This document shows, piece after piece, positions 1,497 to 8,134 of a DNA stretch of 11,003 bases (its first letter is position 1; the number at the start of each line of letters is the position of its first letter). Source of the stretch: an uncultured Porphyromonadaceae bacterium (lineage in GTDB: Bacteria > Bacteroidota > Bacteroidia > Bacteroidales > Muribaculaceae); assembly GCA_905193485.1 (NCBI GenBank), contig CAJJOX010000060.1:1-11003 (forward strand). The letters are read 5' to 3'. The position numbers were made by a program, and so were the translations under genes. Under the pieces are notes generated by a model. It did not search any database. It was not told the origin of the DNA and saw only the letters and a list, made by a program, of their open reading frames with translations.

Positions 1497-1507
1497 TGAA
1501 GATCAGC
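1492..1507. terminator. short hairpin spanning both convergent stop codons
   Basis: GCTGAT (1492-1497) and ATCAGC (1502-1507) form a perfect 6-bp inverted repeat around a 4-base loop. The TGA of the transporter (1494-1496) and the TGA of the ArgC-like gene on the other strand (complement of 1503-1505) each sit in one arm. There is no T-tract on either side, so it is at best a weak bidirectional end; it may be chance. Confidence 0.25.
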
Positions 1508-2450
1508 TGCAGGCATGCGATTTGAGCATAAGCCCGACACGCTCCTGCAATCCGAACAGCAGGTTCATGTCGTGGACGGCCATGGCCGCCGAGCCTTTGA
1601 TCAAATCATCGATCACAGCGTTGATCACCAGTCTGTCGCCCACACGCTGAACATTGATGATGCATTTATTGGTTCCGGCCACTTCATTGAGATTCGGCAT
1701 ACTCGAAGATATGAACGTGAAACTGTGGTCGGAATAATAATCGTTATACAACTCGACAGCCTTTTCCTCAGACATCGGCGATTTGAAGTGAATAGCCACG
1801 GAAATGCCTCGCCGCCAACCGCCGCACATCACGACAAATGTCATCGGAGTGGCAAAATCGGGCTGCAACGACCGCAATGCGCGCACTATGTCGTCGGCCT
1901 CTTCAATATCTATCAGCGCAAGCGTTTCTCCCGGTTCCGCATTCTCTTCGGCAACGACGGCATTGACATGTATGTCGCCGCATGAAAGAGCGTGCTCTTT
2001 GGCAAGAGGCATAAGCGCCAACAGCACTGCCGAAGTCAAAGCCGGCGGTAGCGACGCACGTACACCCCCGCGCACCAGTGGTTTGCGGCTCAGTTCGGGC
2101 AATCCGAATATCCATTCGTCGCCGTCGGCAAACGTGCTCCGCGGCAGCATATCGCCGCTCACATCCAGCAGTTTGACCCGATCAGGCACCGGATATTGCT
2201 CAAGGAAACGGATGCCTTCACCAGGCTCCTCATAGCAAAGGAAAAGCACGTCGATATTTTCCATGTCGGGCTTGGCCGAAAAACGCATGTAGGTTTCCCC
2301 CCGCAAGCCTTTGTGCAACTGTGAAACAAGGGCACCTTCGGCTCGAGGCTCAAGCACCCACGACAGTTCGATATCGGGATGGTTGATAAGTAGTTTTATG
2401 ATCTCGCCGGCTACTGGCATTGATCCGCCGGTCACTGCTGCTCGTATCAT
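1503..2450 (-). CDS. ArgC-family protein (N-acetyl-gamma-glutamyl-phosphate reductase fold) lacking catalytic residues; probable pseudoenzyme
   Basis: 315 codons, intact, close to the length of Bacteroidetes ArgC. Homology is clear from INHPDIEL (22-29), a hydrophobic IDVLFLCYE strand (66-74), IFGLPEL (114-120), RRGI (213-216), AGTNKCIINV (258-267) and the C-terminal block IDDLIKGSAAMAVHDMNLLFG (280-300). ArgC normally reduces N-acetylglutamyl phosphate with NADPH, using a Cys nucleophile and a His. Here the dinucleotide loop GATGYTG reads GGSMPVA (8-14). The PGCYPT nucleophile motif reads PPALTS (135-140), with Ala137 (codon at complement of 2040-2042) at the Cys position and no Cys between residues 72 and 157. 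SGxSGAG is replaced by AEENAEPG, and the H-x-H-x-x-E region before LQPDF (195-199) has no His. Automatic annotation would call it ArgC, but I infer it cannot catalyse that step. It follows argR by 48 nt, so the two are probably one transcript. Confidence 0.85.
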   Translation of the reverse strand: MIRAAVTGGSMPVAGEIIKLLINHPDIELSWVLEPRAEGALVSQLHKGLRGETYMRFSAKPDMENIDVLFLCYEEPGEGIRFLEQYPVPDRVKLLDVSGDMLPRSTFADGDEWIFGLPELSRKPLVRGGVRASLPPALTSAVLLALMPLAKEHALSCGDIHVNAVVAEENAEPGETLALIDIEEADDIVRALRSLQPDFATPMTFVVMCGGWRRGISVAIHFKSPMSEEKAVELYNDYYSDHSFTFISSSMPNLNEVAGTNKCIINVQRVGDRLVINAVIDDLIKGSAAMAVHDMNLLFGLQERVGLMLKSHACS

Positions 2451-2498: not shown

Positions 2499-2999
2499 TC
2501 AGAAAAAATATTGCTTGCCGGCCTCCATCACATTCGAAGGAATGATCTCTGACAGGACAGCATATATTTCCGGGCGCGAAATATCATCGTCCACAGCCAC
2601 AAACACCGTATCGGCTCCGGCGATTGTACCCAGAATATGGGGCGACGAAAGCTCGTCGATATCATAAGCCACTCCGCCTGCATAACCGTTGCGGGTCTTG
2701 ATTATGGCCTGACGCCCCGAGAACGAAACCGACAGGATCGACGCCTGACGCACCGTGTTCATAGCCTGCGTCGCCACTTCGTCGGCGGCTGTTCCGTTTG
2801 CGGCTATCACATAGCGGTAACCGCCCAGTTCGGTGGCCACTTTCGATGTCCGCAATGTCTTCAGGTCACGTGATAGAGTAGCCTGCGTCACATTGCAATT
2901 GCTCGCCTCAAGAAGATCCATCAGCTCTTCCTGACTGCCTATTGAATTGTTAAGCAGAATTTTTACGATAAGAGCCAGCCGGGCTTGTCGTTTGTTCAT
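2499..2999 (-). CDS. argR: ArgR-family arginine repressor, variant ligand site
   Basis: 166 residues from the ATG at complement 2997-2999, starting MNKRQARLALIVKILL, which matches the usual ArgR N-terminus. Longer in-frame starts exist (3032 and 3065), but they lie at or upstream of the transcription start predicted from the promoter at 3035-3065, so I chose 2999. The N-terminal winged helix carries GSQEEL and TQATLSRDLKTL (recognition helix with the SRD triad). The C-terminal half has the oligomerisation/arginine-binding domain with KTRNGYAGGVAYDID and GTIAGADTVFVA. The family's arginine site has two adjacent Asp (GDDT; Asp128/Asp129 in E. coli ArgR). Here the first is Ala129 (codon at complement of 2613-2615), the second is kept as Asp130. 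ArgR normally represses arginine synthesis when arginine is bound; this change may weaken or alter ligand response (inference). It is followed by the ArgC-like gene; no argG, argD or acetyltransferase gene is attached. Confidence 0.9.
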   Translation of the reverse strand: MNKRQARLALIVKILLNNSIGSQEELMDLLEASNCNVTQATLSRDLKTLRTSKVATELGGYRYVIAANGTAADEVATQAMNTVRQASILSVSFSGRQAIIKTRNGYAGGVAYDIDELSSPHILGTIAGADTVFVAVDDDISRPEIYAVLSEIIPSNVMEAGKQYFF

Positions 3000-3034
3000 G
3001 GTGTATGTTAATGAGTTACGTTTCTTATTCATTG

Positions 3035-3065
3035 CAAATTTAATATATCTGCCATAAATATGCAA
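3035..3065 (-). promoter_or_regulatory. Bacteroidetes-type promoter of argR
   Basis: On the minus strand TTG (complement of 3063-3065) is followed after exactly 20 nt by TAAATTTG (complement of 3035-3042), a perfect TAnnTTTG -7 element. Transcription would begin near 3028, giving a leader of about 30 nt before the ATG at 2999. The spacer and -33 TTG overlap an imperfect palindrome, TGCATATTTATGGCA on the minus strand (3050-3064), which has the size and AT-rich centre of an ARG box. Autoregulation by ArgR is therefore plausible but not shown. Confidence 0.7.
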
Positions 3066-3180: not shown

Positions 3181-3209
3181 CGTCGTGCCGGATGCATTCC
3201 GGCACGACG
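3181..3209 (-). terminator. intrinsic terminator of galK
   Basis: CGTCGTGCCGG (3181-3191) and CCGGCACGACG (3199-3209) form a perfect 11-bp GC-rich stem with a 7-nt loop, 28 nt past the galK stop. On the minus strand it is followed by the T-rich CTTTCATTTTC (complement of 3170-3180), as expected for a factor-independent terminator. Two smaller inverted repeats lie further on in the spacer: CGGAC/GTCCG (around 3119-3132) and ATGTC/GACAT (around 3139-3157). Confidence 0.75.
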
Positions 3210-6690: not shown

Positions 6691-7182
6691 TCAAAGATTC
6701 TTATTCAGGAATTCCTTGAATTCAGTTTCATCCATGTTGCCCACTGACGAAACAGGCGCCTTTCCTGTCGACGAAGGATAAATGATCACAATCGCAGGGA
6801 TCGACGAAATTTTATATTCATCAGCCAGATTTTTACATACATCCACATCGGCCGAAGCGAAATTTGCCTTAGCCTGATATTCGGCGGCAACCTTGTGGAA
6901 CACCGGACCGAACTTCTGGCACGGGCCACACCATGTGGCATTGAAATCAATGACCAAAGGATTCGTCATATCGGCGGGACGGATATAGTCATCAGCCTCA
7001 AGCTCAACAACTGCATCTTCGACTGACGGCTCAGCCGCCGGCGTTGCGTCCTGCTCGATCCGGTCAGTCTGCTCGGTCTGGTCAGTGCTCTCCAATTCTT
7101 CTTTACCGGAATCAGTCTTGCCGCTGCAGCTCGCCAGAGCCACTGCTGCGAACAACGACATAACAATTGCTATTTTTTTCAT
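6691..7182 (-). CDS. thioredoxin-fold lipoprotein
   Basis: 163 residues from ATG at complement 7180-7182. A longer in-frame ORF reaching 7275 overlaps the end of mdh, and only the inner start gives a proper signal sequence. MKKIAIVMSLFAAVALASC is a lipoprotein signal with Cys19 as the predicted lipidated residue, so the protein is envelope-anchored. Residues 20-65 are a low-complexity acidic/Thr/Gln linker. The thioredoxin domain follows, with DFNATWCGPCQKFGP (79-93; redox CGPC at 85-88) and the cis-Pro in SSIPA (Pro129). The WCGPC motif is that of true thioredoxins; attached to the envelope it more likely reduces or maintains periplasmic disulphides, or acts in oxidative defence, but the partner is unknown. 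It begins 22 nt after the mdh stop on the same strand, so it is probably the second gene of an mdh operon. Confidence 0.9.
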   Translation of the reverse strand: MKKIAIVMSLFAAVALASCSGKTDSGKEELESTDQTEQTDRIEQDATPAAEPSVEDAVVELEADDYIRPADMTNPLVIDFNATWCGPCQKFGPVFHKVAAEYQAKANFASADVDVCKNLADEYKISSIPAIVIIYPSSTGKAPVSSVGNMDETEFKEFLNKNL

Positions 7183-7204
7183 TTTTTCAATATAATTTAG
7201 TGTG

Positions 7205-8134
7205 TTAACATGAAAGTGCGGAATTGGTCTTGCGCACAGCAGCCGCGCTTGCTGCAAACAATGCCTTCTCTGCATCGGTCAATTCAAACTCGACGATCTT
7301 CTCAATGCCGTTTTTGCCAAGTATACAGGGCACCCCTATGCAAATGTCTTTTTCGCCATATTCACCGTCAAGCAGAGCCGAACAGCTGATCAGTTTCTTA
7401 CTGTCGTGAAGCACAGCGCTCACTACCTGAGCGGCAGCAGCTCCCGGAGCCATCCATGCCGACGTCCCCAGAAGTCGGGTCAGCGTAGCACCGCCGACCA
7501 TTGTGTCTGCGGCAACTTTCTGAAGCTGCTCCTCGCCTAAAAAGGATGTAGCCGGCACACCGCGGTAAGCGGCATAGCGCACCAACGGAATCATTGTGGT
7601 GTCACCGTGACCGCCTATAACGATTCCCTCCACTTCCGTAGCGTTCGCTCCGAGAGCAAGACTCAGGAAGTATCTGAACCGGGCGCTGTCCAATGCTCCG
7701 CCCATTCCGATGACGCGATGCTTTGGCAGTCCGCTTATCTTATGTATAAGGTAAGTCATCGTATCCATTGGATTCGAAACACAAAGGATCACGGCATCCG
7801 GCGAATATTTCAGGACGCTTTCAGTGACCGATCTGACTATGCCGGCGTTAACTCCGATAAGTTCTTCGCGTGTCATGCCGGGCTTACGGGGTATACCCGA
7901 TGTTATCACCACCATATCGCTTCCGGCTGTCTTTTCATAGTCGTTGGTCACGCCCACAAGACGGCTGTTAAGGTTCAGGATATTGGCGGTCTGCATGATA
8001 TCCATGGCTTTGCCTTCGGCAAGACCTTCTTTGATGTCGATCAGCACAACTTCATCGGCAATCGATTGCGTCACCAAAACATTTGCACAAGTGGCACCTA
8101 CATTACCGGCACCCACAACAGTTACTTTTGACAT
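7205..8134 (-). CDS. mdh: malate dehydrogenase (LDH-like type)
   Basis: 309 residues, the normal size for LDH-like bacterial malate dehydrogenase. It catalyses NAD-linked interconversion of malate and oxaloacetate in the cytosol; in Bacteroidales it normally runs oxaloacetate to malate in the fumarate/succinate branch of fermentation. Visible features: Rossmann GAGNVG (8-13) and Asp33, which favours NAD over NADP; the mobile-loop motif GIPRKPGM (80-87), whose Arg83 is the dicarboxylate-selecting residue of MDH rather than the Gln of LDH; VSNPMD (119-124); ALDSARFR (147-154); and the catalytic-His motif GGHGDTTMIP (174-183, His176). The start is ATG at complement 8132-8134 and fits the family N-terminus MSKVTVVGAG. 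The thioredoxin lipoprotein gene follows after 22 nt. All catalytic residues are present. Confidence 0.96.
   Translation of the reverse strand: MSKVTVVGAGNVGATCANVLVTQSIADEVVLIDIKEGLAEGKAMDIMQTANILNLNSRLVGVTNDYEKTAGSDMVVITSGIPRKPGMTREELIGVNAGIVRSVTESVLKYSPDAVILCVSNPMDTMTYLIHKISGLPKHRVIGMGGALDSARFRYFLSLALGANATEVEGIVIGGHGDTTMIPLVRYAAYRGVPATSFLGEEQLQKVAADTMVGGATLTRLLGTSAWMAPGAAAAQVVSAVLHDSKKLISCSALLDGEYGEKDICIGVPCILGKNGIEKIVEFELTDAEKALFAASAAAVRKTNSALSC

Follow-up and report, generated by a model that had tools for sequence, protein, structure and literature searches.

ArgC', a Cys-less descendant of N-acetyl-gamma-glutamyl-phosphate reductase, is kept in a Muribaculaceae-type family that has often lost the arginine pathway

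Results

We analyzed a stretch of 11,003 nucleotides (the window) from an uncultured Porphyromonadaceae bacterium. On its minus strand, which also carries the argR gene and the hairpin described below, positions 1503..2450 encode ArgC', a 315-amino acid Cys-less descendant of N-acetyl-gamma-glutamyl-phosphate reductase (ArgC), as judged from the reading frame, profile matches, and the predicted fold. The gene appears to encode a pseudoenzyme that has lost its catalytic residues while keeping frame and predicted fold under purifying selection, the selection being measured on relatives. ArgC' very probably does some other job, and we see a slightly better than even chance that its retention reflects a non-catalytic function already performed, in addition to catalysis, by the ancestral type-A ArgC, the ordinary enzyme of this bacterial family.

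The window gene has an intact frame and an altered active site

An original prediction, made from the DNA letters, had described an intact frame of 315 codons with ArgC backbone motifs. Both hold: the frame is open on the minus strand, a point absent from the prediction (the plus-strand translation of 1503-2447 contains five stops), and the motifs, including AGTNKC and KGSAAMAVHDMNLLFG, are present. The protein matches TIGR01850 at 1.7e-35 (122.9 bits), below the 233.6-bit cut-off for ArgC membership, and passes the Pfam gathering cut-offs of two models of the semialdehyde dehydrogenase superfamily, PF01118 (31.3 bits, cut-off 26) and PF22698 (54.8 bits, cut-off 27). By these scores it is related to ArgC, well above chance. 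Modeling of the fold, proposed along with the prediction, gave a predicted model with the ArgC fold, and the 12 best structure rows are all ArgC- or LysY-type entries. A plasmid search returned 51 records with ArgC relatives, all below 60% identity to the window protein, and an Rfam scan of the window at gathering scores gave no match.

The active site is altered in every segment that the prediction had named. The NADP glycine loop, GGAGYTA in canonical type-A ArgC, reads GGSMPVA in the multiple alignment (residues 8-14; 2409..2429) and lacks the GxxGYxG pattern. The nucleophilic Cys of the PGC motif is missing; its place in the alignments is taken by Ala137 (2040-2042) of the sequence PPALTS (residues 135-140; 2031..2048), which also aligns with residue 148 of the structure 5EIN. 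Residues 166-188 (1887..1955) are a shortened replacement of the part that contains the SGxSGAG loop and the catalytic segment Y...HxHxxE. Here the stretch holding Trp-178, Arg-179, and the Tyr of YKPF(R/K)HQH of canonical ArgC is deleted, and the two canonical His positions are occupied by Ile182 and Glu184. For ArgC from M. tuberculosis, a published study names Tyr211 and His217 as predicted to stabilize the acyl-enzyme (PMC8220418); their Y...H spacing would map to YKPFRHQH. The window protein has no such Tyr and His pair: its Tyr is lost by deletion, and other residues stand at both His positions.

The protein search scored 7999 candidates and found 4834 relatives. When the best 120 of these were aligned with the window protein, none of the 121 proteins had a Cys at the nucleophile site. 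The clade of the window has conserved residues of its own, GGW at 210-212, Gly174, and Glu175.

ArgC' is kept in genomes without the arginine pathway

Twelve loci were found when named genomes were scanned. Eight of them (L001-L008) hold ArgC' and come from metagenome-assembled genomes with the record titles Muribaculaceae, Paramuribaculum, Bacteroides, Porphyromonadaceae, and Bacteroidales; the ArgC of the other four, which are from Bacteroidales, Marinoscillum, an archaeon, and a Melainabacterium (L009-L012), has the PGC motif. Seven of the nine genomes behind L001-L009 contain an ArgC over the cut-off, with none such in G004 and G008. Six of these seven also hold ArgC', their canonical ArgC lying in the order argG-argC-argD (L014-L019), and G009 has the canonical gene only.

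We then surveyed 149 genomes, mostly draft assemblies, of the family of G005 (titled Muribaculaceae), which are relatives of the window and not its own genome. The ArgC family was found in 147 genomes by TIGR01850 at 1e-6, where weak matches may be other semialdehyde dehydrogenases, and in 145 by a profile of ArgC' (A1) at 1e-20. Matches to argR, argB, and argG were present in 101, 104, and 96 genomes, respectively, and an argB match was absent in 45. Eight genomes were classed as weak in argB (G026, G049, G069, G088, G104, G131, G144, and G155; full-length matches of 118-143 bits, under the 151.3-bit cut-off), and two below the cut-off were counted as argB-bearing (G096, 149.7 bits and partial at a contig start; G114, in two pieces). 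ArgC-family proteins were read in 143 genomes, leaving out G054, G057, G102, and G136, which had no A1 match, and G076 and G108, which had fragments. In G057, G102, and G136, the matches to argR and argG are cut short or close to the beginning of a contig, and argC may have fallen in an assembly gap there.

When canonical ArgC is defined by the motifs NPGC, TGSTGA, and HQH, it is present in all 91 read genomes with argB, in one of the 44 read argB-less genomes (G027, which has argG and argH), and in none of the eight weak-argB genomes, all of which hold ArgC'. An altered copy only is thus found in 51 of the 52 read genomes without argB or with weak argB. ArgC' is kept in 43 of the 45 argB-less genomes (in G146 split over two contigs); G054, also argB-less, gave no ArgC match. 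A search for argH in 66 chosen genomes gave strong matches in all 13 prototroph controls, in G027, and in G088, and no strong match in the other 51, nine of which have weak matches of 47-61 bits. In these draft-genome searches, argB, argG, argH, and canonical ArgC were not found in any of the 43 argB-less genomes that bear ArgC'. An argR match is absent in 24 of the 43, so ArgC' does not constantly co-occur with ArgR, and in 18 of these 24 ArgC' follows gltX or waaA.

The weak-argB genomes form a side case. Seven of the eight lack argG and argH, and ArgC' is the only ArgC-family protein found in the eight; N-acetylglutamate kinase may be a second retained but altered pathway member there. G088 combines argG, argH, and weak argB with only a strongly altered ArgC' (VVPSPEAMA), and perhaps makes arginine from imported citrulline.

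As a control, 295 genomes were taken from across the order, of which A1 matched 90 and argB 103. Fifteen with only weak, partial argB matches (E 1.2e-12 to 8.3e-11) were taken as argB-less, giving 88 genomes with and 207 without argB. Only four of the 207 have any A1 match: G031 (also in the family set) and G178 hold ArgC', in the latter behind argR; G431 holds an ArgC' with VPGAFASA, though with an HxH; and G168 has a canonical ArgC inside argR-argG-argC-argD, its argB probably missing through an assembly gap. Across the order, pathway loss therefore normally means loss of ArgC, which is not so in the Muribaculaceae-type family.

At least two ArgC-family matches occur in 33 family genomes (G146 left out as split). 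In 32 of the 33 (G076 is fragmentary), a canonical argC lies within ∼3.2 kb of argB on one contig, and in all 31 that were read (G076 and G122 left out) the second copy is ArgC'. The other genomes with canonical argC have a single ArgC-family match. The type-A lineage is thus represented by one protein, be it working or dead, in nearly every genome of the family; lineages with canonical argC close to argB use another type of ArgC (type B) and keep ArgC' in addition.

ArgC' descends from the type-A enzyme and is under purifying selection

In a quick maximum-likelihood tree, computed for 110 proteins after removal of fragments, the outgroups L010-L012, and 19 nearly identical type-A rows, all altered copies included and the window protein fall into one group of 83 rows (SH-aLRT 98), which is nested within the family's type-A ArgC. 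A separate group of 11 rows (88) consists of nine canonical rows from two-copy genomes together with the rows of G027 and G175. The branching order of the most altered rows is unsure because of the long branches among them. In a FastTree tree of 170 survey rows, the 32 canonical rows of two-copy genomes have their own branch (0.96) and the 78 altered rows stand together (0.93), with one canonical row, that of G033, among them. Canonical and altered copies of one genome lie on distant branches. Both trees support, at the level of sequence, that the ArgC' group arose within its own bacterial family from the type-A ArgC that is ordinary there. Parsimony gave three changes of the Cys and 33 changes of the residue at that place, on a tree with open forks and long branches; these do not separate several independent losses of the Cys from one loss with regains.

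The prediction had proposed a search in related genomes and a dN/dS estimate, and both indicate purifying selection on intact frames across the family, not simple decay. By the Nei-Gojobori method, applied to pairs more than 80% identical and not saturated, dN/dS is 0.023-0.12 in Cys-less pairs and 0.008 to 0.16 in canonical pairs; single ratios are rough, because many dS values exceed 1. L004/L007, from the clade of the window but without the window gene itself, gave 0.026. Other Cys-less pairs gave 0.026 (L104/L109), 0.023 (L107/L110), 0.024 (L079/L080), 0.054 (L075/L076), 0.072 (L143/L144), and 0.120 (L112/L104, the highest). Frames are open in the listed matches, and the flagged stops in G041, G080, G124, and G026 are all terminal by comparison of coordinates.

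The C-terminal part is conserved and the catalytic segments are lost

For a comparison of columns (77 ArgC' rows and 92 canonical rows), the canonical rows were split by a DLAQ motif into 65 of type A and 27 of type B. The FastTree tree showed that this split had misfiled six rows of two-copy genomes as type A and had put G027 in type B, so borderline kept or lost columns may shift; the count of kept columns and ten columns were recomputed, and the full lists rest on the DLAQ split. Twenty-three columns are fixed in canonical ArgC and below 30% in ArgC', mostly in catalytic segments (type-A numbering: A10, G11, Y12, T13, S36, H75, C133, F134, Q139, S163, T164, G165, A166, W178, R179, S184, K187, F189, Q192, H193, F214, I225, and A296). 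Fifty columns are kept at 85% or more in ArgC', 16 of them at positions 290-316. Among the residues identical in all 77 ArgC' rows are E115, R118, D290, H302, L306, and E312, which correspond to residues 119, 122, 281, 293, 297, and 303 of the window protein.

His293 of the window (1572-1574) lies in the segment KGSAAMAVHDMN (residues 285-296; 1563..1598). The corresponding H302 is present in 77 of 77 ArgC' rows, in 59 of 60 single-copy canonical rows (Gln in G027), and in two of the 32 canonical rows of two-copy genomes, the remainder of which have Gln or Glu.

Gene neighborhoods of ArgC' differ between clades

In the window, ArgC' lies outside any argG-argC-argD cluster. An arginine repressor homologue, argR (2499..3065; 112.5 bits to TIGR01529, cut-off 130.45), is located 48 bases upstream, and the two genes probably form a two-gene transcript. 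A terminator-like hairpin between galK and argR (3181..3209; 12 pairs, 9 of them G-C) suggests that argR and ArgC' have their own transcript. The hairpin evidence is consensus only, with six terminator-like sites in the window compared with 3.9 ± 2.0 in shuffled sequences; a promoter scan found three sites with 4.5 expected. The argR gene directly precedes ArgC' also in eight of the nine nearest loci read (L001-L005, L007, L088, and L089, but not L006), in some of them with overlapping ends, and this arrangement suggests a regulatory context for ArgC' in the window.

Elsewhere the neighbors vary by clade and include galK, argR, gltX, waaA, lysS, tilS, or a pair of PorE-like and CstA-like genes; gltX-waaA-(argR)-ArgC' looks like an old gene order. 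A single functional operon partner was considered and rejected; the neighbors differ between clades, and gene order gave no function. In the argR-less loci L104, L105, L107-L110, L065, and L068, the start of ArgC' overlaps the gltX stop by 4 bases, and lysS follows ArgC' in L104, L105, and L107-L110. In one ArgC' clade, the gene goes together with a PorE-like gene and a gene for a CstA-like transporter, and eight loci share this gene order (L072, L073, L075, L076, L078-L080, and L087).

A loss of the arginine site in the ArgR encoded beside ArgC' was likewise rejected. Among 29 aligned ArgR proteins, GADT is the usual effector region in the three canonical clusters (L114-L116) and also beside ArgC', where a few proteins have GTDT, GANT, or GINT; ArgR of other bacteria has GDDT. 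Elsewhere in the window, the frames of a thioredoxin-like gene (6691-7275) and malate dehydrogenase (7205-8134) overlap by ∼70 bases (7205-7275), and the thioredoxin-like gene probably starts further in.

Discussion

Retention without the pathway, together with low dN/dS, argues that ArgC' is neither decaying nor only a partner of ArgC or ArgR. The original prediction had proposed selection for a non-catalytic role, with a scaffold, a sensor, and a regulator of a true ArgC as the options. The first part agrees with the intact frames, the dN/dS values, and the retention in argB-less genomes; the regulator does not hold as a general function, because 43 genomes keep ArgC' without canonical ArgC, argB, argG, or argH. 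In the scheme that we favor, the ancestral type-A ArgC would have combined catalysis with a second, non-catalytic job. Loss of the pathway would have freed this second job, so that cofactor loop, nucleophile, and acid/base segment could be lost while fold and core were kept. ArgC' would then act as a dimer or larger oligomer that binds a ligand or another protein, probably through the conserved C-terminal part and neighboring residues. More specifically, the ArgC of this family may have an unrecognized second function, for which almost every genome, whether or not it has ArgR or makes arginine, keeps exactly one protein of the lineage and which would be carried by a putative invariant site of His293, Glu119, Arg122, Asp281, and Glu303; we place this proposal a little below an even chance.

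Alternatively, the role could have been gained at the base of the ArgC' clade once the enzyme was redundant, ordinary type-A ArgC never having had it. Such neofunctionalization, which we regard as possible but unlikely, would agree with the nesting of ArgC' as one group in type A (with one canonical row inside in FastTree), with the absence of ArgC' from genomes with ordinary type-A ArgC, which have a single match, and with the residues peculiar to the clade of the window. Across the whole ArgC' group, however, only one new residue is common to at least 70% of the rows (A297), and kept residues such as His293 are already present in type A. We prefer an inherited role, since the conserved residues are those that type A already possessed and since every genome retains one lineage member. 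A shift to another enzymatic reaction that depends on neither Cys nor NADP is quite improbable. In the clade of the window, a conserved sequence does replace the catalytic loop (A-E-P-G-E in many rows) and GGW is conserved, and some copies keep catalytic residues (see below), but the residues at the former nucleophile position are diverse (Ala, Pro, Ser, Glu, Gly, Asn, Asp, Thr, and others), and a shared new set of catalytic residues is therefore not apparent.

The adjacency of argR would suit ArgC' as a partner or effector sensor of ArgR, one that would bind the repressor or a metabolite and so adjust ArgR activity. This is improbable, given the 24 argB-less genomes that have ArgC' but no argR match, in 18 of which ArgC' follows gltX or waaA, and given that the effector region of ArgR is much alike beside ArgC' and in canonical clusters. 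Mixed oligomers, in which ArgC' would regulate or stabilize canonical ArgC, could explain why fold and C-terminal motif are kept and why both proteins occur in 31 of the genomes read; yet the 43 genomes refute this as a general role, and the two copies of one genome are on distant branches, which makes it very improbable. A slowly decaying relic whose loss is pending is hardly credible: the substituted residues do vary from clade to clade, as expected if constraint on the active site were relaxed, but the dN/dS values, the terminal position of all flagged stops, and the retention in 43 of 45 argB-less family genomes against 4 of 207 order-wide with any ArgC-family gene refute it.

Several points weigh against an inherited non-catalytic role. 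Gaps in metagenome-assembled genomes affect single genomes, the counts ignore kinship, and the case for a non-catalytic function, drawn from sequence comparison, rests on retention. His293 is also His in the ordinary ArgC of other members of the order (L168-L170) and is therefore no mark of a special role. With A297 as the one ArgC'-specific column, the near-absence of such residues fits a retained old role but also the conservation of the fold alone. The canonical row of G033 stands among the altered rows in FastTree. Finally, Cys, Tyr, and first His are kept in nine of 78 ArgC' rows (L065-L071, L106, and L111), which were counted as ArgC' by descent and loop changes; the ArgC' of G099 keeps them too, and G082 and G151, which carry two of the nine, are argB-less. 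Some members of ArgC' might thus still be active.

The sources name some ArgC' proteins N-acetyl-gamma-glutamyl-phosphate reductase, and Cys-less copies of G070, G089, G132, G025, and G034 score over the curated ArgC cut-off (237-268 bits, up to 267.8 bits in G070; L105). The model thus names dead copies as enzymes, its cut-off is no test of activity, and in this family argC is not a reliable sign of arginine prototrophy. A biosynthetic enzyme that persists as a conserved dead protein after its pathway is gone, here across a family of gut bacteria, is a natural experiment on the second functions of metabolic enzymes, as subtraction of the catalytic role would leave the other role. A search of open-licence papers found nothing on a dead ArgC in this family.

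Compared with ArgC as described by TIGR01850 (for example, 1vkn of Thermotoga maritima), the window protein lacks the nucleophilic Cys, the Y...HxH segment, and the SGxSGAG loop, and its NADP loop is changed. The closest likeness at the nucleophile is LysY C148A (5EIN), an engineered dead LysW-aminoadipyl-phosphate reductase with Ala at the same position (A148, corresponding to A137). However, 5EIN is a laboratory mutant with one residue changed, whereas the window protein is natural and has lost the rest of the site too. Yeast Arg5,6, an ArgC-domain protein, is thought to have a second, non-catalytic role while its enzyme is still active. In contrast to Arg5,6 and other moonlighting metabolic enzymes, ArgC' has lost the catalytic residues themselves, and often the rest of the pathway is gone as well.
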